From positions 1 through 59,282 of the IMG/VR virus record IMGVR_UViG_3300047560_000851: 59,282 bases of DNA. The stretch is one strand, 5' to 3'. Origin of the DNA: a virus. Positions 1 to 59,282 of the stretch are shown here, in pieces. Below the pieces are notes generated by a model. The model was not told the DNA's origin. It worked only from the letters and a program-made list of their open reading frames with translations, and did no database searches. The first letter of the stretch is position 1, and each line of letters starts with the position of its first letter. The translations under genes and the position numbers were made by a program.

Positions 1-20
1 CATATGAATATCCTTCCTTT
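1..20 (-). promoter_or_regulatory. Ribosome-binding site and ATG at the left edge
   Basis: Read leftward, an AAAGGAAGG Shine-Dalgarno sequence (positions 20-12) is followed after 8 nt by ATG at positions 3-1, where the window stops. The site lies just downstream of the amidoligase stop codon. It is a good initiation site for the next leftward gene. The only leftward gene missing its start is the glutamine amidotransferase at the right edge, so this ATG probably belongs to it. That link is inferred; nothing beyond the ATG is visible. Confidence 0.6.
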
Positions 21-46
21 GATAAGTTTAAGTTATACCGCGAACT

Positions 47-57
47 GATGACTGCTG
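47..57 (+). repeat. Dispersed 11-mer GATGACTGCTG, copy 1 of 5
   Basis: GATGACTGCTG occurs at 47-57, 1994-2004, 42906-42916, 53531-53541 and 58157-58167. All copies have the same orientation and all lie in the leftward-transcribed parts. Two copies near gene ends encode QQSS in leftward proteins, one is in another frame inside the primase, one is in a 31-aa membrane protein, and one is intergenic. The coding frame therefore does not explain the repetition. Function unknown. Confidence 0.5.
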
Positions 58-58
58 A

Positions 59-1903
59 TTATGCTGCTAGTGCTTCTTCGATAATATCCTCAGTCGGTTG
101 CGACTTGGTTGTAATGTGTGGCAAGTTTTCTAGCCATGTATTAGCTATTGCACCACGACCACGCTTGACTACATACTTAGGTCTACGCAAGTACGCAGTG
201 AGATAACCATAGTCAACCTCAACATTAGGTCGCGCTGCCAACCACTTGACAAAATCTGTATGCAACCACGATGAACCTGTCGCAGATTTAGTGCTAGTCC
301 ACTCGGCTAACGCCCACATGAACTCAAGGTTTTTCATAAAGCTCTGTGGATGTAATGTCGATTGGAAGATACGGCACTCGGCGATTGAGTGTTTAAGGTT
401 AAGTGGTGAATACTTGCCCATGCCGTTAATCTTTTTCTTGCCAGCTCGACTGTTGTAGTCAAGACCGCCACACTTACGAATAGTCTGGTCATGTTTAGCT
501 AAACTACCCATGTGCATGGATGCCTCACCGCCATAGATTGCATTACGCTGTGCGATTGCCTTAACGAAACCGATATTCTCCTCGGCAGTTAGGAACAATG
601 ACATACGCGCCTCTTGCAGTGGCGATAGATACTCGCGGTTCATACTGATATGGATACCATACGAATTGTCATCGGGGTGGTTATACCCTAACACTTTGCG
701 CTCAAGTAGGTGGTTAAGTAATCGCGGTGCAAACTCTGCCCATTCTGTCTTGCCATACGGCTGGGTAATAATCTCAAACCCGTGGTCATCATCAAGACTA
801 CCATCACGCTCAAGGTACAATTCAGGGAACTTATCACGCAGACTAGACACCACATCATATCGGTCGTGTGAATACACCTCAATCTCAACGCCTAGTGGGA
901 TAAAGCGTTTGTCTGTCCACTGCTCAACAAAGTCACGATACGCACCATGATAATCGTGCAGTCCATCATAGTCCTCATCGGGTTCATCTTCGCTATTCTC
1001 AAACAGCAAGTAATAAGTATCCTCATCAAAGTACGCACCATCCTCGTACATATAACGGCTGTAATCACAATCGTAGGATAACCAATCGTCTGCGCTCTCG
1101 CGGTTGTATGCGTTTCGTGATAAGTACAGTGGTCGCGCATCGTCTGATGGGATATAAGTTTCGTGGTGATTAGACCAATAATAGTTATCGATACAGGAAC
1201 TGCAAATAATGTCCTCGTTAAGTGTGCTATGGGCTTCGTCTGTGTGGTCGATGTATCCACAATCGGGGCAAACAAATCGGTCATAGTCCTGTAAGTTTAA
1301 CTTGTTGAATACACGCGAACGCTTCTCACTACCAATACGCACATTGTTCAGGGCATTCACTACATCGTCTACAATATCTGCGTCAATCTCTTTGCCCTTG
1401 CGGTAATACGCTATGGCTTTTGCTATGAGTTGCCCTTGTTCTAGTCGCGCATATCGGTCGTTGCGTTTTCGTAGTGCAGCATCATAGTGCAAGTTGCGGT
1501 GTTCGATTGCCACCAATTCTTCCGTTGCTCGGAACGCTCTGATTTTGTTACATAACGCAGCTAGATACACACGGTACACACGCTTGGCATGATGTTGATT
1601 TTGGAATAACCGAATTGATGTATCCCACGAACTGCACCAGTATGGTGCTTTCGTCACAGCGACCTCGAACTTCACATCGCCATTGCCTGATACTTCAGTG
1701 ATGCGACCCATGCCATAGTCGCGGTTATAGACCAATTTACCCAGCAGTTTGCGTAGGTATCTAGCCCTCGCGTTGTAGGTTTCGATTGGTTCTAGCATAT
1801 CGCGCAGTCGTTTGGTCGGTTGCCTGTCATTGACAACAATGTCGTCAGTGGTGTAGCCCTGCATTGCTCGTACCGCATCGCGGTAATGATTTGAAAATAA
1901 CAT
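59..1903 (-). CDS. Amidoligase-like enzyme (glutamine synthetase-like fold) with zinc ribbon
   Basis: A 614-aa protein. Residues about 335-545 carry the hallmarks of the phage amidoligase family (Amidoligase_2 type): GVEIEVYS at 338-345, ERDGSL at 365-370, GIHIS at 416-420 and ECRIFQSTL at 509-517. These enzymes are predicted to couple ATP hydrolysis to formation of an amide or peptide bond. A central zinc ribbon has two CxxC pairs (C212/C215 and C234/C237), followed by a Tyr/Asp-rich stretch at 265-315. The N-terminal 200 residues are basic and unrecognised. The start has a GGAGAGAG ribosome-binding site. Downstream is the probable start of a class II glutamine amidotransferase, which could supply ammonia. 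The substrate cannot be deduced. Confidence 0.75.
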   Translation of the reverse strand: MLFSNHYRDAVRAMQGYTTDDIVVNDRQPTKRLRDMLEPIETYNARARYLRKLLGKLVYNRDYGMGRITEVSGNGDVKFEVAVTKAPYWCSSWDTSIRLFQNQHHAKRVYRVYLAALCNKIRAFRATEELVAIEHRNLHYDAALRKRNDRYARLEQGQLIAKAIAYYRKGKEIDADIVDDVVNALNNVRIGSEKRSRVFNKLNLQDYDRFVCPDCGYIDHTDEAHSTLNEDIICSSCIDNYYWSNHHETYIPSDDARPLYLSRNAYNRESADDWLSYDCDYSRYMYEDGAYFDEDTYYLLFENSEDEPDEDYDGLHDYHGAYRDFVEQWTDKRFIPLGVEIEVYSHDRYDVVSSLRDKFPELYLERDGSLDDDHGFEIITQPYGKTEWAEFAPRLLNHLLERKVLGYNHPDDNSYGIHISMNREYLSPLQEARMSLFLTAEENIGFVKAIAQRNAIYGGEASMHMGSLAKHDQTIRKCGGLDYNSRAGKKKINGMGKYSPLNLKHSIAECRIFQSTLHPQSFMKNLEFMWALAEWTSTKSATGSSWLHTDFVKWLAARPNVEVDYGYLTAYLRRPKYVVKRGRGAIANTWLENLPHITTKSQPTEDIIEEALAA

Positions 1904-19855: not shown

Positions 19856-20185
19856 ATGGCAACTAATACATTCAAATCATATGCAAGCAAAAACGTAGGC
19901 ACCTCGGCGGCTACCGTATATACATGCCCGTCTTCGACACAGACTACGTTGATTGGCTTATCTATGGCTAATACATCGACGAGTCCTATTACAACAGATG
20001 CATATGTGACGCGTTCTGCCGTCAACTACTATTTAATCAAAGGCGCTACTATTCCAACAGGCGGTACTTTGGTAATCGTTGGCGGAGATCAAAAAGTAGT
20101 TTTACAACCCGCAGATGTGCTATATGTGGTAAACTCTGCTGCAACATCAGGTGATTGTTTTGCTTCATTGTTAGAGATTGCATAA
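19856..20185 (+). CDS. Small beta-rich fibre-region protein, 109 aa
   Basis: A beta-rich protein with VGTSAATVYTCPSSTQTTLIG and a C-terminal VLYVVNSAATSGD. Such proteins recur between fibre genes of many phages and resemble small Ig or decoration folds. It ends 1 nt before the next ATG. Function unknown. Confidence 0.55.
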   Translation: MATNTFKSYASKNVGTSAATVYTCPSSTQTTLIGLSMANTSTSPITTDAYVTRSAVNYYLIKGATIPTGGTLVIVGGDQKVVLQPADVLYVVNSAATSGDCFASLLEIA

Positions 20186-20186
20186 T

Positions 20187-21989
20187 ATGTCATACATTGG
20201 GAATACAGCACAAAATCAGAGCTTTACTCCAGCCGTTGATTATTTCAATGGTGATGGGTCTACGACCGCATTTACGCTAAGTCGTCCTGTTGCGTCAGTG
20301 ATGCAAATTGAGGCTGTGATTGAAAACGTAGTTCAGAACCCGAGTTCAGCGTACACAGTATCTGGCAATACAATTACATTTACCAGCGCACCTCCTAGTG
20401 GAACCAACAACATTTATGTCCGTTATACTAGCCCAATCACATCTGTAGCTGCGCTACCAAAAGACCCGGAAATCGTAGGCAACTTACGCATTAGTTCCAC
20501 AGCAGCGCGTATTACTGGTGACTTTAGTAATGCTACAGTTGCTAATCGTGTAATGTTTCAAAGCAGCACTACAAATGGAAACACAAGAGTGATTGCTATA
20601 CCAAATGGATCTTCAACTGGGGCTAGTTTTGCTGCATTTAATAGTTCAGGAGCTACTAATGCTTCTGTTATACAAATTGACATTAGCAGTACAGAAGCTT
20701 CATTACAGTCTAATATTATTGGTACAGGCACATACTTACCAATTACATTCTACACTGGTGGCTCTGAGCGCATTAGAATTGACACTAGTGGTAATGTAGG
20801 GATTGGTACAAGTAGTCCTATAGCAAATACAAATCAAACAAGAATCACAACAAACGGCACTTCTGCTAGTGGTTTAAGCATGATGGTTGGTGGCACAAAT
20901 ACAGCATTTTGTATTACATCTTCTGCATCAATGTTTGTAGGAAGTGTTACTAGCATTCCGATAATTTTATCAACAAATGATACAGAACGTATGCGTATCG
21001 ACTCCTCTGGGAACGTAGGGATTGGCACAAGTAGCCCTAGTTATAAATTAAGCGTTTGGACAGCAGGAACAGGAACAACACAGGCAAGTAACAACATTGC
21101 TCAATTTTATTCCAATGGTAATGGATATGATGCAAGTATTCGTTTTGGAGATAATAATAATTCAGCGTCTGTAATTGGATATTTATCTGGCGCACAGTAT
21201 TTTTCTACTGGCGGTTCAGAACGTATGCGTATTGATTCTAGTGGTAATGTGGGGATTGGTACAAGTAGCCTTTCAAGCAGACTGCATATAGATGGGGGTT
21301 CAAACTATTCTGCAACATCAATGAATTCTTCTAGTACTACGGGTACATTATGTCAATTTACTAATACCACAACAGGAACTCTTTGGAATATTGGCTTATC
21401 TGGGTCAGGTGCAGCAGTCGGTCCGGCAGGTGCTTTTATTATTCGAGATAGTAATGCAGGTACTACCCGTTTTATGATTGATGTTAGTGGTAATCTTGCA
21501 ATGGGTACTACAACCGTAACATCAGGGTTTAAACTTACATTAGACCACCCAAACCAAGGCGGTATAGTTTATAACTATAACGGAACATCGACTCAGCAAG
21601 CATGTAGGTTCGTAAATGGTAACGGTACTGTAGGTCATATCGATACAAATGGGTCTGCAACATCATATGTAACTTCATCTGACTATCGATTAAAAGAAGA
21701 AGTAGCGCCAATGACAGGAGCTTTAGATAAGGTTGCATTACTTAAACCCGTAACATACAAATGGAAAGTAGATGGTTCTGCCGGCGAAGGTTTTATTGCT
21801 CATGAGTTAGCTGAAGTATGCCCACAAGCGGTTGTTGGTGAAAAAGATGCGGTAGATGAAGAAGGTAATCCACAATATCAAGGCATTGACACATCATTCT
21901 TAGTAGCTACTCTCACAGCAGCAATACAGGAGCTTAAAGCTATCGTAGACGCACAAGCAGAACGCATCGCAGTATTGGAAGGTAAATAA
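20187..21989 (+). CDS. Tail fibre/tailspike with C-terminal S74 chaperone domain (1 of 3)
   Basis: 600 aa from ATG 20187. The N-terminal 90 residues form an attachment domain beginning MSYIGNTAQNQSFTPAVDYF. The middle is built of beta-helix-like segments around recurring ERMRIDSSGNVGIGTSSP motifs. The C-terminal about 110 residues are a peptidase S74 intramolecular chaperone: SDYRLKEEV, then ALDKVALLKPVTYKW and GFIAHELAEV, ending in a helical tail. The chaperone trimerises the fibre and then cleaves itself off, with the Ser of SDYRLK as nucleophile in the family. Coupled by TAATG to the next fibre. Confidence 0.85.
   Translation: MSYIGNTAQNQSFTPAVDYFNGDGSTTAFTLSRPVASVMQIEAVIENVVQNPSSAYTVSGNTITFTSAPPSGTNNIYVRYTSPITSVAALPKDPEIVGNLRISSTAARITGDFSNATVANRVMFQSSTTNGNTRVIAIPNGSSTGASFAAFNSSGATNASVIQIDISSTEASLQSNIIGTGTYLPITFYTGGSERIRIDTSGNVGIGTSSPIANTNQTRITTNGTSASGLSMMVGGTNTAFCITSSASMFVGSVTSIPIILSTNDTERMRIDSSGNVGIGTSSPSYKLSVWTAGTGTTQASNNIAQFYSNGNGYDASIRFGDNNNSASVIGYLSGAQYFSTGGSERMRIDSSGNVGIGTSSLSSRLHIDGGSNYSATSMNSSSTTGTLCQFTNTTTGTLWNIGLSGSGAAVGPAGAFIIRDSNAGTTRFMIDVSGNLAMGTTTVTSGFKLTLDHPNQGGIVYNYNGTSTQQACRFVNGNGTVGHIDTNGSATSYVTSSDYRLKEEVAPMTGALDKVALLKPVTYKWKVDGSAGEGFIAHELAEVCPQAVVGEKDAVDEEGNPQYQGIDTSFLVATLTAAIQELKAIVDAQAERIAVLEGK
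21852..21922 (+). repeat. 71-bp perfect repeat shared by S74 genes 1 and 2
   Basis: Positions 21852-21922 and 23075-23145 are identical over 71 nt, including third codon positions. The same coding segment in gene 3 (about 24645-24715) has several silent differences. This supports recent recombination between genes 1 and 2 at the S74 domain. Confidence 0.85.
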
Positions 21990-23197
21990 TGGCTATCTCT
22001 AAAATCGGCACAAACGGATTAGACCAAACTGGCGACCTTGAGCTTGGCGCAACAGGCAATGTGGGGATTGGTACTGCTTCGCCAGCACAAAAGCTAGATG
22101 TAAATGGCACTATCAGAAACAGAGATGGTAATTATGTAGGCGCTGTTGGAAGCACAAATAACAATGCATTCTATGGTGGAGAAGATTATTTGACTGGTGG
22201 TGGACTCATTATGTACGGGTCTAACCATTCAGGTTCTCCAAATGTAATTAAATTTGTAAATAGTGGTTATACAGAACGTATGCGTATTGATTCCTCTGGT
22301 AGATCCGCAATTTCAACTTCAACAAATGGCGTAACAATAGATGCTTATGCTGCTTTAAAGGTTGAAAATTCACTCGGAACAACTACAGGAAATCCTTGGG
22401 AAAACAGTGTATTAACAGTTAAAGGCGCTGCAGCTATGGCGCAAGGTGTTGGTGGGCTTATAAGTTTAGAAGGTAATTACATTACTGCAAATTCTGCTTC
22501 AGCCAACTTTGCATGGATTAAAGGTGCTAAAACAAATGCTACAAGCGGTAACGCAACAGGCGATTTAATTCTAGGCGCTCGTGGCGGCAACATTAGATTT
22601 TCTTTAGATTCCACAAACTCAGGATTGACTAGTGAGTCAATGCGTATTGATTCTAGTGGTAATGTGTTGGTTGGTAAAACAACTACAAGCACTACAACTG
22701 CTGGCGTTCAGCTTATTCCTAATGGCACCGCAGCTTTTACATTTGATACAACAGGTGATGGACCACTTACACAATTTATTGACCCTAATGCTTCAACGCC
22801 AAATGGGTTTCGCTTTTTATCATTTAGATGGGGTGCAAGTCCAACTGAAATTGGAACAATTACAAAAAGCAGTGCAAGTGCTGTTGCATACAACACTACT
22901 TCAGACTATCGCCTAAAAGAAAATGTAACACCAATGACGGGTGCTTTAGACAAAGTAGCACAACTAAAACCTGTTACTTATACATGGAAGGCTGACGGCT
23001 CTGATGGTCAAGGTTTCATTGCTCATGAACTTCAAGCGGTTGTACCTGATTGCGTAACAGGTGAGAAAGATGCTGTAGATGAAGAAGGTAATCCACAATA
23101 TCAAGGCATTGACACATCATTCTTAGTAGCTACTCTCACAGCAGCCATCCAAGAACTATCAGCCAAAGTAGCAGAACTCGAAGCAAAGGTTAAATAA
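21989..23197 (+). CDS. Tail fibre with S74 chaperone domain (2 of 3)
   Basis: A 402-aa paralogue of the preceding fibre with a much shorter N-terminus (MAISKIGTNGLDQTGD) and no recognisable attachment domain. It has ERMRIDSSG motifs and a C-terminal S74 domain (SDYRLKENV, GFIAHELQAVVP). Part of its S74 DNA is identical to gene 1 and part nearly identical to gene 3, indicating mosaic gene conversion. It starts at TAATG and ends at TAATG. Confidence 0.82.
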   Translation: MAISKIGTNGLDQTGDLELGATGNVGIGTASPAQKLDVNGTIRNRDGNYVGAVGSTNNNAFYGGEDYLTGGGLIMYGSNHSGSPNVIKFVNSGYTERMRIDSSGRSAISTSTNGVTIDAYAALKVENSLGTTTGNPWENSVLTVKGAAAMAQGVGGLISLEGNYITANSASANFAWIKGAKTNATSGNATGDLILGARGGNIRFSLDSTNSGLTSESMRIDSSGNVLVGKTTTSTTTAGVQLIPNGTAAFTFDTTGDGPLTQFIDPNASTPNGFRFLSFRWGASPTEIGTITKSSASAVAYNTTSDYRLKENVTPMTGALDKVAQLKPVTYTWKADGSDGQGFIAHELQAVVPDCVTGEKDAVDEEGNPQYQGIDTSFLVATLTAAIQELSAKVAELEAKVK

Positions 23198-24783
23198 TGT
23201 CATACATCGGCAATCAACCAACCACAACGGCGTTTGTCACTGATACCTTCAGCGGTAACGGCACGACTACAGCTTTTACAATGTCTGTGGCACCAGCTAC
23301 GACCACATCTATTCTGGTCTCGATTACTGGGGTGTTGCAAGATCCTTCGACTTACTCTATCAACGGTACAACACTTACCTTCTCAGCTGCGCCTCCAACT
23401 GGCACAGGCAACATCTCTGTTCGTTACTTAGGCATCCCAGCATCAGGCGTAACAACGACCGCATACAGAACACTGACTGAGTTCACAGCAACGGCAGGAC
23501 AGACAACATTCACACCGCCTTCATACACAGTGGGCTTTATCAATGTCTATCGTAATGGCGTCTTGCTAGGAACTGCAGATTACACAGCCACAAATGGCAC
23601 GACTGTCGTATTGGCGAAAGCAGCCAGCGTAGGCGACTTGGTAACAACAGAGTCATTCTATGTGAGTTCAGTGCTAAATGCGTTGCCAACAACAGGTGGT
23701 ACTCTGAGTGGGAATCTTGCGGTTCAAGGAAGCACCTATGTAACTGGCGATGTAATTGCTGGGTACGGCAACAATGCTGGCGGCGGTGGCGGCTTAATTT
23801 CTCAAGGTTCTGTTACAACAGGCACACTTGGGGCTAATGCAATATTTTTAGACAATGATGGTACAGGGCTTGGTCGTTGGCGTTCATACGGTTCAAATAC
23901 ATCTACCTATGGTGCATTTGTATTCCAAGCTGCTACATCAAATAATACCCAAGCAGAACGTATGCGTATCGACTCCTCTGGTAACGTAGGGATTGGCACA
24001 AGTAGCCCTGCAATGCCAGTTCACGTTGTTAAAAATTGGGTAAGCGGAAAAGCAACTATAGGTGTGCAAACAATAACATCTTTTGCAAGTGGCGGAACTG
24101 CTGGAGTTGGTTTTTTTGATAGCGATGGAACAAGAGGTGGATATCTAAATAGTACATCAGGGGCAATGACTATTGATTCTGGTGTTAGTAATATCATGGC
24201 ATTATATACCAATAATACAGAACGTATGCGTATTGATACTAGTGGTAATGTGTTGGTGGGTCAAAATACAGATCCATTTCCAGGAGCAGGAAATACGATT
24301 ACTGGCATGGGATTAAATGCTTCAGGAAGGGTCGCATTCTCGTGTTCTGGTAGTGTAACAGGTTATTTTAATAGAAATACCAGTGATGGCGTACTAATCT
24401 CAATGAGAAGGCAGGGTACTGAAGTCGGTCACATTGACGTGACAACAACAGCAACAGCATATGTAACATCATCAGACTATCGCCTAAAAGAAAATGTAAC
24501 ACCAATGACAGGCGCATTGGAAAAAGTAGCACAACTAAAACCTGTCACTTATACATGGAAGGCTGACGGCTCTGATGGTCAAGGATTTATTGCACATGAA
24601 CTTCAAGAAGTAGTGCCTGATTGTGTAAGCGGTGAAAAAGATGCGGTAGATGAAGAAGGTAATCCAGAGTATCAAGGCATTGATACTTCATTCCTAGTAG
24701 CTACATTAACAGCAGCAATCCAAGAACAACAAGAACTTATTACCAGCTTAACAGCCCGTATCGAAGCGTTGGAGATTAAATAA
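23197..24783 (+). CDS. Tail fibre with S74 chaperone domain (3 of 3)
   Basis: A 528-aa protein. The N-terminus (MSYIGNQPTTTAFVTDTFSG) resembles that of gene 1, followed by a second strand-rich module (YRTLTEFTATAGQTTFTPPS), ERMRIDSSGNVGIGTSSP repeats and the S74 domain with a longer helical tail. Genes 1 and 3 share attachment-type N-termini and gene 2 does not. Receptor specificity probably lies in the variable middle parts. Confidence 0.82.
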   Translation: MSYIGNQPTTTAFVTDTFSGNGTTTAFTMSVAPATTTSILVSITGVLQDPSTYSINGTTLTFSAAPPTGTGNISVRYLGIPASGVTTTAYRTLTEFTATAGQTTFTPPSYTVGFINVYRNGVLLGTADYTATNGTTVVLAKAASVGDLVTTESFYVSSVLNALPTTGGTLSGNLAVQGSTYVTGDVIAGYGNNAGGGGGLISQGSVTTGTLGANAIFLDNDGTGLGRWRSYGSNTSTYGAFVFQAATSNNTQAERMRIDSSGNVGIGTSSPAMPVHVVKNWVSGKATIGVQTITSFASGGTAGVGFFDSDGTRGGYLNSTSGAMTIDSGVSNIMALYTNNTERMRIDTSGNVLVGQNTDPFPGAGNTITGMGLNASGRVAFSCSGSVTGYFNRNTSDGVLISMRRQGTEVGHIDVTTTATAYVTSSDYRLKENVTPMTGALEKVAQLKPVTYTWKADGSDGQGFIAHELQEVVPDCVSGEKDAVDEEGNPEYQGIDTSFLVATLTAAIQEQQELITSLTARIEALEIK

Positions 24784-25802
24784 TGACAAACGCAGTATCA
24801 GTAGCTCAATCAGTCGCATCAGGCGTATCGCTTGGGTTTAAAAACAGAATCATCAATGGTGCGATGATGATTGACCAGCGTAATGCTGGGGCTAGTGTTA
24901 CATCAGCTTCAGGAAATACTTACATTACTGATAGATTCGCAATTAAATCATCTCAGGCATCTAAGTTCACTGGTCAACAAAATGCAGGTGCAGTTACTCC
25001 ACCATCAAACTTTAAAAATTATCTTGGAATAACATCAAGCTCTACTTATTCTGTTTTATCAAGCGATTACTTTATTTTGTATCAAGGTATAGAGGGTTTA
25101 AATAGTGCTGATTTAGGTTGGGGAACAGCAAATGCCTCCCCAGTAACATTATCTTTTTGGGTACGTAGTTCATTAACTGGAACATTTGGTGGCGCTCTTA
25201 GGAATGATGCAGGAAATCGTAGCTATCCCTATACTTACACAATTTCATCTGCAAATACTTGGGAATATAAAACAATCAGTATTCCTGGAGATACAACAGG
25301 GTCATGGTTGACCAATAATACTACAGGAATTGAAGTTGGATTTGGTCTAGGTGTTGGCTCTACCTATAGCGGTACTGCTGGTTCTTGGGCGGCTTCAAAC
25401 TATCTTTCAGCCACAGGCGCAACATCAGTAGTCGGCACTAATGGTGCTACCTTCTACATCACAGGCGTACAGCTTGAAGTCGGCACAACAGCAACTAACT
25501 TTGATTACAGACCTTATGGTACAGAGTTTGCACTTTGCCAGCGTTATTACTACAAACGAAATACAACAGCTCAAACACTTATGTTGCGTACAGATGGTAT
25601 TCGTTGGTTGACAGTTTATATGCCAGTTGAAATGAGAGCTACACCAACGCTAAGTTATACATATAACGCAGACGGTTCAGGCACTACAGGTACTGAAGCA
25701 AATGTATGCTCTACATCGTTTGACTTGCGTTCTGCAACGTCTGCTGGAACAGGCGCATCAAATCCATACTTTACAAATGTAACTGCTTCAGCGGAGTTAT
25801 AA
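24783..25802 (+). CDS. Putative receptor-binding fibre protein (cassette A)
   Basis: A 339-aa protein overlapping the preceding stop by TAATG. The N-terminal motif [21 protein letters not shown] and the late motif [17 protein letters not shown] with FDYRPYGTE-x-ALCQRYY are typical of a family of phage fibre tips with a carbohydrate-binding-like beta sandwich in between ([19 protein letters not shown]). It is paralogous to the gene at 25965. Each copy is followed by a small gene. Confidence 0.75.
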   Translation: MTNAVSVAQSVASGVSLGFKNRIINGAMMIDQRNAGASVTSASGNTYITDRFAIKSSQASKFTGQQNAGAVTPPSNFKNYLGITSSSTYSVLSSDYFILYQGIEGLNSADLGWGTANASPVTLSFWVRSSLTGTFGGALRNDAGNRSYPYTYTISSANTWEYKTISIPGDTTGSWLTNNTTGIEVGFGLGVGSTYSGTAGSWAASNYLSATGATSVVGTNGATFYITGVQLEVGTTATNFDYRPYGTEFALCQRYYYKRNTTAQTLMLRTDGIRWLTVYMPVEMRATPTLSYTYNADGSGTTGTEANVCSTSFDLRSATSAGTGASNPYFTNVTASAEL

Positions 25803-25803
25803 A

Positions 25804-25968
25804 ATGTATAAATTGATTAAAGATTTTTACACAAAAGAAGAAGTTGGAGTGTCAAAAAGTGGATACGCAAATTTTATCCCATTCGACCCAGCTAACACAG
25901 ACTACCAAGCCTACCTAGCGTGGCTAGAAGAGGGCAATGAATCGATCCCAGCAGAGGAAACAGCATGA
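25804..25968 (+). CDS. Small fibre-cassette protein A, 54 aa
   Basis: 54 aa starting MYKLIKDFYTKEEV. The C-terminal half contains [20 protein letters not shown], a signature shared with the small gene at 27059. Small proteins with this motif commonly follow phage fibre genes and may help fibre folding or attachment (inference). Its stop overlaps the next fibre start (ATGA). Confidence 0.75.
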   Translation: MYKLIKDFYTKEEVGVSKSGYANFIPFDPANTDYQAYLAWLEEGNESIPAEETA

Positions 25969-27062
25969 GCTTAACAACCGTAGACGCAGGGCTACTAAAT
26001 ACCCAAGCACAATACACAGGCTTCAAGAATCGTATTATTAACGGTACGATGCAAATTGACCAGCGTAATGCTGGTGCTAGTGTTACTCCTGCTAATGGTG
26101 CTTATACATTAGACAGATGGGGTGTTTATCAATTTTCTAGTGCATCTAAATTTTCAGTATATCAAAACGCAAATTCTACAGCTAGTTATGTTGCAACAGG
26201 ACAATATTATAGTTTAGGAGTGACATCATTATCTTCATATTCAGTTGGGGTTAGTGATATTTATGCTATTTTTCAACGTATTGAAGGATATAATGTAGCA
26301 GATTTAGCTTGGGGAACATCAGCAGCAAAAACAGTAACATTATCTTTTTGGGTATATAGTTCATTGACAGGAACTTTTGGCGGGGCATTTCAAAATGATG
26401 CTGGAGATAGAGCTTACCCATTTACTTATACAATTAGTGCTGCTAATACTTGGGAACAAAAATCAATTACAGTAGCTGGTGATACAACAGGAACATGGTT
26501 AAAAACTAATGGCTCTGGTTTACAAATTACTTTTGGTTTAGGTGTAGGTTCTAATAGAAGTGCAACTGCTGGTTCATGGCAAGCTGGTAATTATGGTTCA
26601 GCTACTGGTGCAACATCTGTAGTCGGCACAAACGGTGCTACCTTCTACATCACAGGCGTTCAACTAGAAAAAGGCTCTACAGCTACATCATTTGACTATA
26701 GACCTTATGGTACAGAATTAGCTTTGTGTCAAAGGTATTACCAACAATCATATTCTCAAGGAACTGTTGCTGGAGCTACTACACCAATAGGTTCTATACA
26801 ATATGGTTCTACATCAACTAATGCAAATGCAAACTATTTTCCAATACGTTTTGTATGCAGCATGAGGTCTTCTCCAACCATAACACTTTATAGCACTGTA
26901 ACTGGGGCATCAGGAAAAATAAGAAATTATAGTACAACTGCAGATTTAAATGCTGCAACTTTTGATGGTGGAGATTCTGGAACTTTTATTCAAGTTGCTA
27001 CAGCTCCTGCTGGTACAGGGCAACAACTTCAAGCGCAATATATAGCAGTGAGTGAGTTATGA
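25965..27062 (+). CDS. Putative receptor-binding fibre protein (cassette B)
   Basis: A 365-aa paralogue of the fibre at 24783: the same [20 protein letters not shown] opening, [19 protein letters not shown] core and [17 protein letters not shown], but a diverged 80-residue C-terminus. The split between conserved core and diverged tip suggests duplicated receptor-binding proteins with different specificities, or a stock for recombination. Confidence 0.75.
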
Positions 27063-34030: not shown

Positions 34031-37000
34031 ATGCCATCAATAAATGATATTCGTAAGGCCAATCCTGGAGTATATGGCGGACTCACAGACTTTGAAATTG
34101 TAGACCGTTTATCCCAGCTCACTGGCAGACATCCTGACGCAATCGGATATGACTTAGGTGTTGCACCACGTAACGCTCCGGGTGCTATTACTGCGTTTAA
34201 AGGTAGTATGGGCGGAATTGCTGAAGGTGTTGGTCAGCTAGCTGGCGATATTACAGGTGGCGCATTACGAGATAACGCATTAGAGCGATATGGTCGAGAA
34301 GTTCAGCAACGCAATCCAATGGATATTACAGAGGGCGCTTCAGAAAGCGCCTTAGCTAATTTAGGTACTAACCTAATGGAGCGTCCAGGAAATGTTGTTG
34401 GTCAGGTTATCGGCGGTTCTATTGGATATATTACTCCAGGCGGTGTCGCTAAAGCAGGTCTAGGAGCATATCGTGGACTTCGTGGTATTCAAGCATTAGA
34501 AGCTGCATCTACAGCCACAAGAGCTGCTAAAGCTACAGGCACAGCCGCATACTTCGGTCTTCCTTCTTACGCACAAATCCGTACAGAACAAGAGAAACAA
34601 GGGCAGAATGAACTATCTGACATCTTAAAAGCAGGTATTGCTTCTACAGCAGTTGGCGGTATTGAAACTATTGCTGGTCCTGAAGCTATGTTAGCTCGGG
34701 GCGGCGTTAAAGGTTTAGGCGACGCTGGCAAAACATTCCTACGCACAGGTCTTAAACAAGGCGCGATGGAAGCTGGCGAAGAGCTTATGCAAAACCCAAT
34801 CGAGAATTGGGCGATGGGTCAAAATCCATTCAGCCGTGAGAATATCGATCAAACTCTTGCAGGTGCCGCAGCTGGTTTCGTAGGTGGTGGCGTTATGGGT
34901 TCTGCTATGCATCCATTGATGCGCAAGGCAGACGAGCAAGTAAGAACTAACTTAGAGTCTCGTAACTCGGTAGACATCCTTAACGAGCAACCTCGCACAA
35001 ACATTTCTCAAGCGCAAGATCGTATTAATTCAGGTCGCAATCTACCGCAGCTGGGTTTAGAGACTCAACCAGTACTAACTGTTACTCCGACAGGTGATGT
35101 ATTAACTACACCAGAACAAATTGATGCATGGGGTCAATTCGGCAAGAACCAAAAACAAGTTGGCGTTTCTGACGGTGAAGCAGTTCTAGTTAAACCATTG
35201 TCTATCGACGAAGCTAAGACTCGTAAGGATATTAGACTTGCTCTCGACCGCGAGTTTGCTCAAGGTAACATTTCAGAAGACCAGCATATTGAAGCTACAA
35301 ATGTAGTAGATACGCGCGGTAAATGGAACCTTTCAAAAGTTAAAGAAAATATCCGCGGCATTATCAAACCTGCGGACGAAGTAGCTGTAGCAGAAGACCA
35401 ACCAACACTAGCTAAATCAGTAAAAACTGGTGAAGGTCTAGACCTTGCTGCACAAAAAACACAGCCTGTAGGTATTGCCCGTGACGCTACTCCTGATGAA
35501 GTTGTGCGCTATAAAGACAAGATGGCAGGTATGCTACGTCAAGCGCTCACAGAAAAACAATTCCAAGCACTACAACTTACACGCGGTATCCGTAACTTTG
35601 AAGATTCTGGCTGGAAGATTGACCCAGAAACAGGCGAAGAGATGGTTCCAATGTCAGCAACTGTTGCTGGCAGAATGTCTAACTCGTCACGTCAAAATGC
35701 AAATGAGCATGCGAATAAAGGTTTAACTCGTTTACACAAACGCGCTTTTGAACTAGGTATTCCTGCAGACGCTGCAGAACGTATCCTTGGTATCCAAGGC
35801 GAACAAGCAATTGATGTAGGCACAATGTCTGAAGCTCAAGCTGCGCAAGCAGGGTTATCTTATCGTCGTGAGCAAGGCGCACCTATCAGCGCTATGTCAG
35901 AATCAGAAGATTTGGATACGACAGCGGAGAACTTCCAGCCAGAAACATACATTGCACCAGAAGTTGGATTTACTGCTCCTGAAGCTGTTATGGCAGAACA
36001 GGCACAGACCGAAGGGTTTGAAGCTCCTGCACAAGCGGCTGAAGTAGAGACACCAGTAGAAGAAACTGTCGGGTATGAACAAGACTTTGATTTATCTGCA
36101 AATGACTATGAAGACGCTAAAGACGTTTGGGAAATGCTCCAAGCTGAATTGGCTAAAAACGGTCAGGCAGTCCCAAATTGGGAAGATGTATCAGCTGCTG
36201 ATTTCCAGAAGTTCGCTGCAGCGACTAAGTATCACTTAAACAATCCGCAAGGCGCTGCTTCTATGGCAGCAATTACAAAGGCACAGGAGGCCGCGTATGG
36301 CACGACAACACAACCTAGCACTGCTGGACAAGTTGGCACCGCAGCAGAAACAAAAGCTGGTGAACCTAATGTTGGAAATCGCCAAGAAGCAAAACCAACC
36401 ACTCGTAGAGAAAAACCCACTGAGAGTACAGCAAGCGTAAAACGCTCTCAAGCCGAACGCCCAGAGAATCCAGCTAATGCTGTAAGCATGAAAGCTAAAC
36501 TCAAAAGGTTATTTTTCTCTCCAGCTAAGTTCGATGAACTTATTACCATTGTCCAAAATACAAACGAACTACCACTTAACGCAGTGAGAGCTGCTAAATT
36601 ATCCGCAGATGATACTACAGCACAAGCATTTGTTTGGCGCGGTCATGTTTATATGATTGCAGATAATATCGCTCAAGGCGATGAGCTTGCTGTATTGATG
36701 CACGAACTTGGTGTACATATTGGTGTGATGAACGCCTTAGACATTAAGACTATTCGCGATTTGGCGGGTCAGATTGTTGAGTGGAACCGTAACGATAATG
36801 GTTCAGTAGAATTCCAAGCCGCGCGTAATGCGATGGCAAGGCTTACGTCATACAAGAAGGGTCTTGAAGAACAAGGCGAAACTATCGAAGATGATTTATA
36901 CGCAGAGGAAGCTGTTGCGTACTTTGTTGAAGAGGCTGTTAAATTAGGTGTAAACCCTACAGCTATTGGCGAAGCTAAAGCAGGTACTATCCAATCATGG

Positions 37001-39931
37001 ATGAAGAGACTTGTTGATGCTTATCGTGCAGCTCTACGCGCCATTGGCTTTGGTCGTTTTGAAGATTTAAAAGCACAAGACATTATCGATTTCGCGTATG
37101 GTGTGGCTAATATGGAGTTGACGGAACCAACCGCTGCTGTAGAAGCTACTGCTACACCCAAGTTCTCCGTATCTCCAGTTGAGAAAACAGCTAAGAAGAT
37201 TTCAGGCTACACAGCCGAATTAGTGGGTGACTTGCCTAAGCCTGTGGGTGACGCAGTACGATACGCAGGTGATTCTGTACATGACATGGCTAAACGCGGT
37301 CTATGGTACTCAATGTTCACTAACGACCTGATTGACTTCGCAGCTAAATACATTCCTTCTGCTCGTGCATGGTATGACAAGATTGCTGCTAAATCAGTTG
37401 ACCAAATCAAACATGAAGCCGAAGTTGACCGTATTGCAGCGATGTCAGACAAACTATCACGCGAAGAATTTACTCGCACATGGCAGCTTATCCTCGACAT
37501 GACATCAAAACAAGTGTGGGGCTATAAACCTGCATGGAAAACTGATGTAACTGTCGACCCTGAAATGGAAGCCAGATACAACGAACTATCAGACGAAGAA
37601 CAAGAACTGATGGATGAAGTGTTCGAGCATGGCGAGAAGACAATTAAAGATGTACAGCGCGTACTAGACGAGATTGCAACTGCAGAATATCAAGCGCTAT
37701 TAGACAACGCTAAGACAGAAGAACAACGTCAAGAAATTCGTGCACAAGAAGCCAAATACAAGAAGATGTTCGGCAAAGTACTTGCTAAACTTGAAGGTCC
37801 TTACGCACCTATGCGCCGTGTTGGTAGCCATGTAGTTGTTGGTAAATCACAGCGATACTTAGATGCACAAGAAGCTAACGATACTGCAGCGATGGAAGAA
37901 ATGCGTACTAATCCAGATCACTACTGGGTTGAATTCGTGGATTCTATGGCGGAAGCTAAACGTATTGCTCGTGACTTATCAGGTAAGTATGCCTCAGTAA
38001 AACCATCAGCGAAGATTAACTTCAGCCAAGGGCAAGGCGTATTACCGTTCCAAGCGTTTGAACAAATTCGCAACATGATTAGCGAAAAAGAAGGTGACTT
38101 TGCATCACGCCTAAATGGTTTGGTGACAGAGCTATACCTAACATCACTCGCAGAAACAAGCTCACGCAAATCAGAATTACGCCGCGAAAATGTTAAGGGT
38201 CTTAACGCGGATACCATGTACAAAGCATTCGTATCTAAAGGCCGTGCTGATGCGCACTATATCGCAACGCTCAAAAACAGTTCTGATGTAGCTAAGTCAT
38301 TCGCTAATATGCGTAAAGAAGCGCTTGATAAAGGCGGTGACGCTGCTGATATTTTCATCGAGCTATCAAAACGCTACATGAATTCAATCGAGTTCAATCC
38401 AGCACCTGTAGTAAGTAAGATTATGGGTTTCAATACCATCTGGTCATTGCTCACTAAGCCAGCGTATTACTTGTATAACGCGACACAACCTGTGCTGATG
38501 ACTCAACCGTTCTTGTCACAGAAGCATGGCTATACCAAGTCAGGCAAGGCAATGACTCAAGCGTATAAAGAACTCGCAGGCATTAAGTCTTACATCAAGA
38601 ACCCAATGCTTAACGTGAACGATATGCCAGAAGATGTACGTCGTGCGCTTCATGACTTGATGGATGCAGGTAAGCTAGACATTACTATTACGCAAGATTT
38701 GGGCACTCGTATTGAAGCAGGGCAAGGCAAACTATCACGCGGTATGGCAAAGGTTGACCGTATGCTCCGCAACGCGGCCCAGAAAGTTGAGACTACTAAC
38801 CGTTTAGTGACAGCAATTGCTGCGTATCGCTTGGCTATGGATACAGAAGGTATGTCACATGAAAATGCAGTTAAGTATGCAGCTCGTGCGATTGACCAAA
38901 CTCAAGGCGATTACAGCAACTTAAATGCTCCACGCTTATTCAACGCTACGTCATTCCAACGCTTGGTATCTCAGTTCCGTAAGTTCCAGCTTATCCAGAT
39001 TTCATTCATTGTGCGTATGTTTAAAGACGCTATGGTTGGTGCCTCACTTGAAGAACGTGCTGCAGCTCGCCGTGCTCTTATGTATGTGCTAGGTCATCAT
39101 GCAGTTCTTGCTGGTGCATTAGGTCTTCCTGCTGCTAACATTATCGCTTGGGCATTTGCTGCATCTGGTGGTGATGACGAGCCTAAAGACTTAGAACTAG
39201 CGATGCGCAAGGCGATTGAAGATCAGTTCCTAGCAGACTTACTCACACGCGGTGTACCTGCTGCAGTATTCAATATCAACGTCTCACAAAACGTGGGCAT
39301 GGGTCAGGCATTTAGCTTGATGCCATTTACTGATATTACGTTTGATCGTGCAGGTTACGGTGAATTCTTACGCGGTATGTCAGGTCCATTTATTGGTGGT
39401 GTGGTTCCACAGATGTGGGAAGCTATGGGTAAGTTTGGCAGTGGTGATTATTACCAAGGTCTTGAAGGTGTTATGCCATCAGGTGCCCGTAATGCACTTC
39501 GTGCCATGAGAGAAGGTGTATCTGGTGTTACTAACACCCGTGGCGATGAGCTTGTATCTCCAGAAGAGATTTCGATGGGTGCAACATTCGCTAAACTCTT
39601 AGGCTTTAAGACAAATGATGATGCAAACCGTCAGATGATTCGTGGTAGACTAGCGGAATTCGAGCAGTTCTATCAAGACCGCACTTCACAACTGAAGAAG
39701 CAGTATGCTAAGGCGTACCGTGATGGCGATACAGAAGGTATGGTGGAAGCCCGTGACCATTGGCAAGAGATGAACGCGTCTAAATCAGAACTTGGGTTCA
39801 AGACACAGCCTATCAGTAACCTACTTAAAGCGCCTATGGAAGAAAGAAAACGTGAACGTGCCACAATCGGCGGTGTTCAGGTAACTAAAGCGAATAAACG
39901 ATTTGTTCAATCTCTAACAGAGGAGGAATAG
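34031..39931 (+). CDS. Giant internal virion / large polyvalent protein, 1966 aa
   Basis: By far the longest gene. Residues 50-280 contain glycine-rich hydrophobic helices that could insert into membranes. An acidic, P/A/T-rich linker spans roughly 640-820. A MHELGVHIG motif at about 890-898 resembles a variant zinc-peptidase site seen in large polyvalent phage proteins (HExxxH rather than the classic HExxH). The last 500 residues include LTKPAYYLYNATQPVLMTQP and a following helix array as in LPD38-type domains. It is probably ejected with the DNA and may act on the envelope or inside the host. The domain calls are pattern-based. Confidence 0.7.
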   Translation: MPSINDIRKANPGVYGGLTDFEIVDRLSQLTGRHPDAIGYDLGVAPRNAPGAITAFKGSMGGIAEGVGQLAGDITGGALRDNALERYGREVQQRNPMDITEGASESALANLGTNLMERPGNVVGQVIGGSIGYITPGGVAKAGLGAYRGLRGIQALEAASTATRAAKATGTAAYFGLPSYAQIRTEQEKQGQNELSDILKAGIASTAVGGIETIAGPEAMLARGGVKGLGDAGKTFLRTGLKQGAMEAGEELMQNPIENWAMGQNPFSRENIDQTLAGAAAGFVGGGVMGSAMHPLMRKADEQVRTNLESRNSVDILNEQPRTNISQAQDRINSGRNLPQLGLETQPVLTVTPTGDVLTTPEQIDAWGQFGKNQKQVGVSDGEAVLVKPLSIDEAKTRKDIRLALDREFAQGNISEDQHIEATNVVDTRGKWNLSKVKENIRGIIKPADEVAVAEDQPTLAKSVKTGEGLDLAAQKTQPVGIARDATPDEVVRYKDKMAGMLRQALTEKQFQALQLTRGIRNFEDSGWKIDPETGEEMVPMSATVAGRMSNSSRQNANEHANKGLTRLHKRAFELGIPADAAERILGIQGEQAIDVGTMSEAQAAQAGLSYRREQGAPISAMSESEDLDTTAENFQPETYIAPEVGFTAPEAVMAEQAQTEGFEAPAQAAEVETPVEETVGYEQDFDLSANDYEDAKDVWEMLQAELAKNGQAVPNWEDVSAADFQKFAAATKYHLNNPQGAASMAAITKAQEAAYGTTTQPSTAGQVGTAAETKAGEPNVGNRQEAKPTTRREKPTESTASVKRSQAERPENPANAVSMKAKLKRLFFSPAKFDELITIVQNTNELPLNAVRAAKLSADDTTAQAFVWRGHVYMIADNIAQGDELAVLMHELGVHIGVMNALDIKTIRDLAGQIVEWNRNDNGSVEFQAARNAMARLTSYKKGLEEQGETIEDDLYAEEAVAYFVEEAVKLGVNPTAIGEAKAGTIQSWMKRLVDAYRAALRAIGFGRFEDLKAQDIIDFAYGVANMELTEPTAAVEATATPKFSVSPVEKTAKKISGYTAELVGDLPKPVGDAVRYAGDSVHDMAKRGLWYSMFTNDLIDFAAKYIPSARAWYDKIAAKSVDQIKHEAEVDRIAAMSDKLSREEFTRTWQLILDMTSKQVWGYKPAWKTDVTVDPEMEARYNELSDEEQELMDEVFEHGEKTIKDVQRVLDEIATAEYQALLDNAKTEEQRQEIRAQEAKYKKMFGKVLAKLEGPYAPMRRVGSHVVVGKSQRYLDAQEANDTAAMEEMRTNPDHYWVEFVDSMAEAKRIARDLSGKYASVKPSAKINFSQGQGVLPFQAFEQIRNMISEKEGDFASRLNGLVTELYLTSLAETSSRKSELRRENVKGLNADTMYKAFVSKGRADAHYIATLKNSSDVAKSFANMRKEALDKGGDAADIFIELSKRYMNSIEFNPAPVVSKIMGFNTIWSLLTKPAYYLYNATQPVLMTQPFLSQKHGYTKSGKAMTQAYKELAGIKSYIKNPMLNVNDMPEDVRRALHDLMDAGKLDITITQDLGTRIEAGQGKLSRGMAKVDRMLRNAAQKVETTNRLVTAIAAYRLAMDTEGMSHENAVKYAARAIDQTQGDYSNLNAPRLFNATSFQRLVSQFRKFQLIQISFIVRMFKDAMVGASLEERAAARRALMYVLGHHAVLAGALGLPAANIIAWAFAASGGDDEPKDLELAMRKAIEDQFLADLLTRGVPAAVFNINVSQNVGMGQAFSLMPFTDITFDRAGYGEFLRGMSGPFIGGVVPQMWEAMGKFGSGDYYQGLEGVMPSGARNALRAMREGVSGVTNTRGDELVSPEEISMGATFAKLLGFKTNDDANRQMIRGRLAEFEQFYQDRTSQLKKQYAKAYRDGDTEGMVEARDHWQEMNASKSELGFKTQPISNLLKAPMEERKRERATIGGVQVTKANKRFVQSLTEEE

Positions 39932-58338: not shown

Positions 58339-58516
58339 GGTCTATCCTTTTCCAAAAGTCCTCAACTACTTGGTCTGCCCATTCCGCAGGTAGCCTACTT
58401 CTTGTACAGTTATCCGACCCTGCTACGGCAACCGCAACATCTACCCATAACTGCATGGCAAGCTGCTTGTAGTCCATCTCGATAGGTTTATCCTTGCGTT
58501 TGATTTGCTTACGCAT
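58319..58516 (-). CDS. Hypothetical protein, 65 aa
   Basis: Basic N-terminus (MRKQIKRKDKPIEMDYKQL), then AMQLWVDVAVAVAGSDNCTRS and AEWADQVVEDFWKRI, motifs of a common small phage family. Its ATG overlaps the stop of the amidotransferase. It overlaps the next gene by 20 nt. Confidence 0.65.
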   Translation of the reverse strand: MRKQIKRKDKPIEMDYKQLAMQLWVDVAVAVAGSDNCTRSRLPAEWADQVVEDFWKRIDHGKARQ

Positions 58517-59282
58517 TATGCTGCAACCTTATCGTTCACGGCTTCTGCGTTCATGTAGTTACCATATGCAATACCATCGAATAACTCTAGTATCTGCACA
58601 TCTGTAATCGAACCATCTTCAAGGGCAATCAATAAGTCCTCTGCCTCGTATGGGTCTTCGCGGTAATAGTCAGCTAACTCGTCATGTGTCAAGGTCGAAT
58701 AAGACTCGTAGTATCTACGCTTGGTTAATGTATCCATGAATAACTCAGCATACTGCATCTCGATTGAGTCGTCGTCATACGCTACACTATAAGTCAATGA
58801 TGATTTAGTCTTCTTACCTACTGGCTCATAGTAATCATCTTCATATCCATTCCAACCATAGCCTGCGTTCCAGCCCTTATAGTTACCACCATAGTAACTG
58901 TTGTATGGTTTGACTACGCCAGCCTTAGCTGCACTCCACGCATAGGTGTTAGACATCCACACATCACCCCACATCACACCGCTATCCTTATTGAATGTCA
59001 TTGTGTTGCCGTGTGCATCCATCATCACGAACTTATTACTTGAACCGATATGGTCTTCGATAAGGTCTTGAAACCACTTAGACATGAACTGCTCTGGTCG
59101 ACCTGCTAGTGCTGGGCGAATGATGTCGTTAATATAGTGCCATGTGTCAGACTTCTTGGTATCTTTTGCATTACCTGTGGATAACACGCCATTGTGCATG
59201 AGCCATAACGGATAACCATCAGCCTCGCTAAACACTTGGTATGGGTGGCAGTTATCTAAGTCGATGTCGCCATGAGTACGCA
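58516..59282 (-). CDS. Class II glutamine amidotransferase, N-terminus off the window
   Basis: The frame is open to the right edge. The visible part begins RTHGDIDLDNCHPYQVF and LWLMHNGVL: the R-T-H-G, N-C-H-P and H-N-G-x-L motifs of class II glutamine amidotransferases, which release ammonia from Gln using an N-terminal Cys. That Cys and about 60 residues should lie beyond the edge. The C-terminal 150 residues are Tyr/Asp-rich (YYGGNYKGWNAGYGWNGYEDD) and acidic. It very likely pairs with the amidoligase at 59-1903. An internal GTG at 59235 is not a credible start. Confidence 0.75.
   Translation of the reverse strand, partial: RTHGDIDLDNCHPYQVFSEADGYPLWLMHNGVLSTGNAKDTKKSDTWHYINDIIRPALAGRPEQFMSKWFQDLIEDHIGSSNKFVMMDAHGNTMTFNKDSGVMWGDVWMSNTYAWSAAKAGVVKPYNSYYGGNYKGWNAGYGWNGYEDDYYEPVGKKTKSSLTYSVAYDDDSIEMQYAELFMDTLTKRRYYESYSTLTHDELADYYREDPYEAEDLLIALEDGSITDVQILELFDGIAYGNYMNAEAVNDKVAA

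Follow-up and report, generated by a model that had tools for sequence, protein, structure and literature searches.

Pairs of an amidoligase and a glutamine amidotransferase (GATase) have been predicted in phages since 2009, and the literature examined reports no substrate for them. A report on OM43 phages describes one such pair, with reference to mycobacteriophage Marvin and to Iyer et al. 2009 (PMC10580990). Larger gene sets, termed peptidoglycan-modification cassettes, are found in phiEco32, RIO-1, LUZ24, tf and UFV-P2-like phages, and those of UFV-P2, tf and Pseudoalteromonas podoviruses contain extra ligases (PMC5498523, PMC3890496, PMC3517423). Stenotrophomonas phage StenR_269 likewise carries a larger cassette with extra ligases, judging by its annotation. 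The hypothesis that these genes act on peptidoglycan comes from the same literature (PMC10580990, PMC5498523). Outside phages, MurT-GatD of Staphylococcus aureus is an amidating enzyme whose two subunits, one of them a glutamine amidotransferase, come from two genes that are co-transcribed (PMC3267633). The likeness of MurT-GatD to the phage pair discussed here is an analogy of work rather than homology. MurT is a relative of the Mur ligases, and GatD belongs to a different class of glutamine amidotransferases.

Here, we analyse a 59,282-base IMG/VR record (the window), an unclosed viral contig classed as linear, whose amidoligase/GATase pair is a divergent member of the pair already predicted in other phages. 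The window pair shares gene order, adjacency and both protein families with Methylophilales (OM43) phages MEP401 and MEP402 and with Marvin gp105-gp106, the ligases being ~25% and the GATases 23-37% identical. Its ligase differs from theirs in a long N-terminal extension and in an HxS motif in place of HxH. In the phiEco32/LUZ24-type cassettes, too, a glutamine amidotransferase gene lies near that of an amidoligase; further members are a COOH-NH2 ligase, a gamma-glutamyl cyclotransferase and an ATP-grasp enzyme, and none of these three is among the Pfam families listed (25 of 29) for the 64 other window proteins. The closest ligase found, at 42% identity over 415 aa, is on an Azoarcus sp. MAG contig (L099); it has H-x-N at the HxH motif and is followed on the same strand by a GATase gene, with ~390 bp between the two. 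A search of the L099 genome for the terminase of the window phage did not find it.

The window phage is judged to be a podovirus from its portal, internal virion, fibre and replication genes, which include a portal/head-tail adaptor, a T7-like internal virion protein, GP4-type fibre proteins, a family A DNA polymerase, an SNF2 helicase and a DUF927 primase. The nearest matches to its portal, at 36% identity, are those of Rhizobium phages of the RHph_TM27A type, which are circular records of ~60.9 kb, and a DNA-level search for phages nearly identical to the window returned none. Among the fetched loci, the nearest phage is probably a 45 kb viral contig (L067), in which the pair lies upstream of a DNA polymerase on the same strand and whose polymerase is the best match found to that of the window (phmmer 8.5e-181). 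Three successive ORFs at 20178-24783 (603, 402 and 528 aa) match the same tail-fibre PHROG families (18345, 19195 and 9942) and appear to be related fibre genes arranged in tandem; two further successive ORFs at 24783-27062 (339 and 365 aa) each match the tail-fibre family phrog_4492, a possible second duplication. The late block also contains a 1966-aa ORF (34031-39931), perhaps the window protein that the scan assigns, without naming it, to the DarB-like antirestriction family phrog_10089.

The amidoligase gene (59..1903, minus strand) encodes 614 aa free of internal stops, and its assignment as an Amidoligase_2-type enzyme with a glutamine-synthetase fold is based on its translation, its fold and the Pfam membership of its relatives. 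The four motifs from which an earlier, sequence-only reading had recognised an amidoligase are all present in the intact frame: GVEIEVYS (338), ERDGSL (365), GIHIS (416) and ECRIFQS (509). The protein consists of a helical N-terminal extension (residues 1-205), a zinc ribbon (~205-290) and a glutamine-synthetase-like catalytic domain (331-580); the AlphaFold2 model is poor at the N-terminus (1-104) and good for ~150-280 and most of 331-580. The ribbon, which the same reading had described as the protein's own, is formed by C212, C215, C234 and C237 (1193..1270, minus strand). C215, C234 and C237 are present in 42 of 42 ligase relatives and C212 in 32 of 42, so the ribbon is common to most of the family and is not peculiar to the window protein.

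Neither window protein on its own reaches any Pfam model, and the ligase matches a single PHROG of unknown function (E 1.6e-9). Family membership is indicated by the relatives: 42 of the 43 aligned ligases match Amidoligase_2 (PF12224), the window ligase being the sole exception, and the ligases of MW202733 and AR1086-1 likewise match, above the cut-off. Viral ligase relatives were found only through alignments; single-sequence scans with P0001 or L099 recovered none, and a search of solved structures with the ligase profile gave one weak, irrelevant match. Foldseek alone returned weak matches, with plant glutamate-cysteine ligase at the top and Dop fourth. The structural match to glutamine-synthetase-like enzymes, on which the earlier reading had made its assignment depend, is provided by VIA-align 2, in which residues 331-580 align with glutamine synthetase, YbdK, Dop, PafA, GmaS and plant glutamate-cysteine ligase at Z 9-11. 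All 50 rows listed belong to this superfamily, and glutamine synthetase itself reaches Z 11.1 over residues 331-573.

The second gene (58516..59280, minus strand) encodes the C-terminal 254 aa of a class II glutamine amidotransferase, a GATase_4-like Ntn hydrolase recognised from its translation, tblastn matches and the fold of a relative. It runs off the right edge of the contig: the fragment starts at RTHG, and ~71 N-terminal residues, including the catalytic Met-Cys start, lie beyond the edge. RTHG, NCHP and HNGVL, the basis of the original amidotransferase call, are indeed present, and the fragment carries all of the glutamine-pocket motifs THG, N..HP, HNG and SDT, with the family residue at every covered position that is invariant in all 36 relatives. 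Its tblastn matches are the GATases of MW202733, MEP401 and MEP402, and it is 55-62% identical to viral relatives over the first ~120 residues. The fragment itself matches a different PHROG from the ligase, and weakly (E 0.044); GATase_4 is matched by 33 of the 37 GATases. A full-length relative that is 35% identical to the fragment (L061) has a fold matching the GlmS glutaminase domain, its best fold match (Foldseek E 8e-6), and EgtC, its second fold family; the GlmS residues R73, T76, H77, H86, N98 and G99 align in sequence with the GATase. Taken together, the ligase residues common to 42 diverse relatives, the glutamine-synthetase fold and the GATase family residues exclude chance as the source of these assignments.

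At the opposite edge of the contig, the spacer downstream of the ligase (1..58, minus strand) contains AAGGAAGG followed by an ATG at 3..1, 55 nt past the ligase stop. These are a probable ribosome site and start codon of a GATase gene running off the left edge. The sequence-only reading had noticed this ATG and assigned it to the gene just downstream of the amidoligase; the ATG exists, and is better read as the start of the same GATase whose remainder enters at the right edge than as that of a separate gene. This reading follows from the relatives, in which the GATase lies within 96 nt of the ligase (often 2-50 nt, at times overlapping) and an MC start, found in 36 of 36, precedes THG by 71-73 residues. 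Moreover, the right edge opens with TG, the last two letters of the codon before RTHG, a position occupied by Met (ATG) in all 36 relatives. Very probably, then, the two genes are neighbours and ~205-211 bp are absent between the contig ends. Joining the ends directly into a circle would put GYSYV upstream of RTHG, where relatives have the conserved H-x-R-M-x-THG, and MC would be absent; we therefore favour a true gap. The exact DNA of both edges was also searched for in viral contigs that might bridge them, with no match.

Linkage of the two genes is near-obligate within this family. The GATase-led search covered 80 viral loci, 12 new ones and nine from bacterial genome assemblies (an Azoarcus MAG, two Pelistega contigs, three Polynucleobacter, a Methylobacter MAG, Candidimonas and a Burkholderiaceae MAG), and the GATase is directly downstream of the ligase on the same strand in 101 of 101 non-window loci that hold both genes, annotated phages included. 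From the ligase side, the GATase adjoins in 79 of 79 evaluable loci, the remaining one of 80 being ended by the contig end. Adjacency in related phages, the other point on which the earlier reading hinged, is therefore borne out from both directions. The set of loci is redundant. It contains 56 pairs, that of the window among them, whose ligases are more than 15% different, and across these non-redundant pairs ligase and GATase distances correlate (r 0.88; 0 of 2000 permutations), shared descent explaining part of the correlation. Flanking genes vary between lineages while the pair persists, and clustering of the pair's neighbours in search of a third cassette gene found none constant across lineages. 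Not every Amidoligase_2 protein is paired, since ligases without a GATase exist, as in Clostridioides phage AR1086-1. The pair is carried by many phages of proteobacteria. In Pelistega indica HM07, two contigs (L100 and L101) hold near-identical pairs, pointing either to two related prophages or to a split in the assembly.

The enzyme classes and their pairing are thus strongly supported by family, fold and linkage. For their joint function, we lean modestly towards a single glutamine-dependent amide synthetase of two subunits that is produced early in infection, on the basis of both folds and families, the active-site residues, the near-obligate pairing and the correlated divergence. In the proposed mechanism, the GATase subunit would lose Met1, and Cys2 would then hydrolyse glutamine. 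The ammonia released would pass to the ligase, which, presumably with ATP and magnesium, would convert a carboxylate to an acyl phosphate and then to an amide; the helical extension and zinc ribbon of the ligase may serve to bind its partner or substrate. The pair heads the leftward block of the window, followed by DNA polymerase, exonuclease, SNF2 helicase and primase, and in MEP401, MEP402 and ctgrD200 genes for primase, helicase or RNA polymerase lie downstream of it; early expression is suggested by this placement. Promoter and terminator scans gave no signal above shuffled sequence.

Glutamine-synthetase-like and GATase-like pairs can also act in opposition, as EgtA/EgtC and PuuA/PuuD do, so ammonia delivery is best taken as a proposal. 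An antagonistic arrangement, in which the ligase joins glutamate through a gamma-glutamyl bond to an amine or amino acid and the Ntn hydrolase later removes it in the manner of EgtA/EgtC, is an unlikely alternative. It draws on EgtC, the second-best fold family of the GATase, which acts on gamma-glutamyl adducts; on the gamma-glutamyl ligases YbdK, plant GCL and GmaS among the fold relatives of the ligase; and on the StenR_269 cassette, which combines a related GATase and an amidoligase with a gamma-glutamyl cyclotransferase, a glutamine-synthetase-like gene and an ATP-grasp-type gene. However, the best fold match of the GATase is GlmS, an ammonia-channelling enzyme, and a linear gamma-glutamyl pathway normally needs intermediate enzymes, whereas here there is a minimal pair with no constant third gene.

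If the pair is an amide synthetase, it probably amidates a host molecule of some kind. The likeliest substrate would be a host carboxylate carried on a peptide, for example on a peptidoglycan stem peptide, a plausible candidate by analogy with MurT-GatD and AsnB/LtsA and in view of published predictions. The sequence-only reading had suggested that the two proteins could build or amidate a small peptide or wall component; neither a substrate nor a peptide gene was found in the window. Modification of a host protein or nucleotide-like metabolite, in take-over or counter-defence, instead of the wall is improbable to much the same degree as antagonism. Such an intracellular target would suit the position of the pair ahead of replication genes in the window and ahead of replication or RNA polymerase genes in MEP401, MEP402 and ctgrD200, and a zinc ribbon could recognise a macromolecule, but no DNA-modification gene, such as a thymidylate synthase homologue, occurs among the 25 of 29 Pfam families listed for the 64 other window proteins.

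For the amide synthetase reading, the state of the ligase active site matters, and here the window protein combines conservation with change. The residues G338, E340, E342, D367, S369, G375, E377, G416, H418, R453, N502, E509 and R511, invariant across all ligases tabulated, as distant as Marvin, MEP401 and AR1086-1, with one E-to-D exchange at 340, are all present in the window. They include the GxExE, DGS, GxE, GxH and ExR residues, near-invariant among distant members. Judged from motif order within the matched fold, the counterparts of these residues in glutamine synthetase are presumably its metal-binding ExE, GxHxH strand and ExR motif. In GIHISM (ligase residues 416-421; 641..658, minus strand), the alignment shows the first His kept and the second replaced by Ser. 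Of the tabulated sequences, the window has Ser at the second HxH position, L099 and L105 have Asn, and the other 52 have His; we know of no requirement for this second His in Amidoligase_2 members. Besides H420S, the window ligase departs from 42 relatives at C415, R452, R497, E499, A500, T507 and G515. It forms a firm clade with L099 (100/100) on a long stem, which L105 joins weakly, between long branches, and it has diverged beyond what its GATase predicts, with the second largest excess among 54 pairs.

The HxS/N change, the long stem and the excess divergence make it possible that the window/L099 subclade has changed its substrate or lost its activity, and the window ligase may accordingly differ from its family in either respect. 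One form this could take is a derived amide synthetase, with an altered active site, a long helical and zinc-ribbon front and a substrate different from that of the classical pairs, which we regard as a slightly more doubtful proposition than either alternative above. Equally doubtful is a degenerate or repurposed ligase that has lost the family reaction, because, for all its substitutions and excess divergence, its 614-aa frame is intact, the residues invariant even in the most distant members are retained, and its closest relative, L099, shares the HxH change yet has an intact pair.

Beyond the earlier predictions, this analysis shows how widespread and strict the linkage is, that no third gene is constant, that the pair occurs in genome assemblies of beta- and gammaproteobacteria, and that there is an HxS/N subclade. 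Linkage that is near-perfect whichever gene the search starts from, together with the lack of a constant third gene, suggests that the two genes alone form a working unit, so that expressing just these two would be a simple and practical test. Should the wall be the target, the pair would produce amidated peptidoglycan in Gram-negative hosts, possibly as a shield against other phages.
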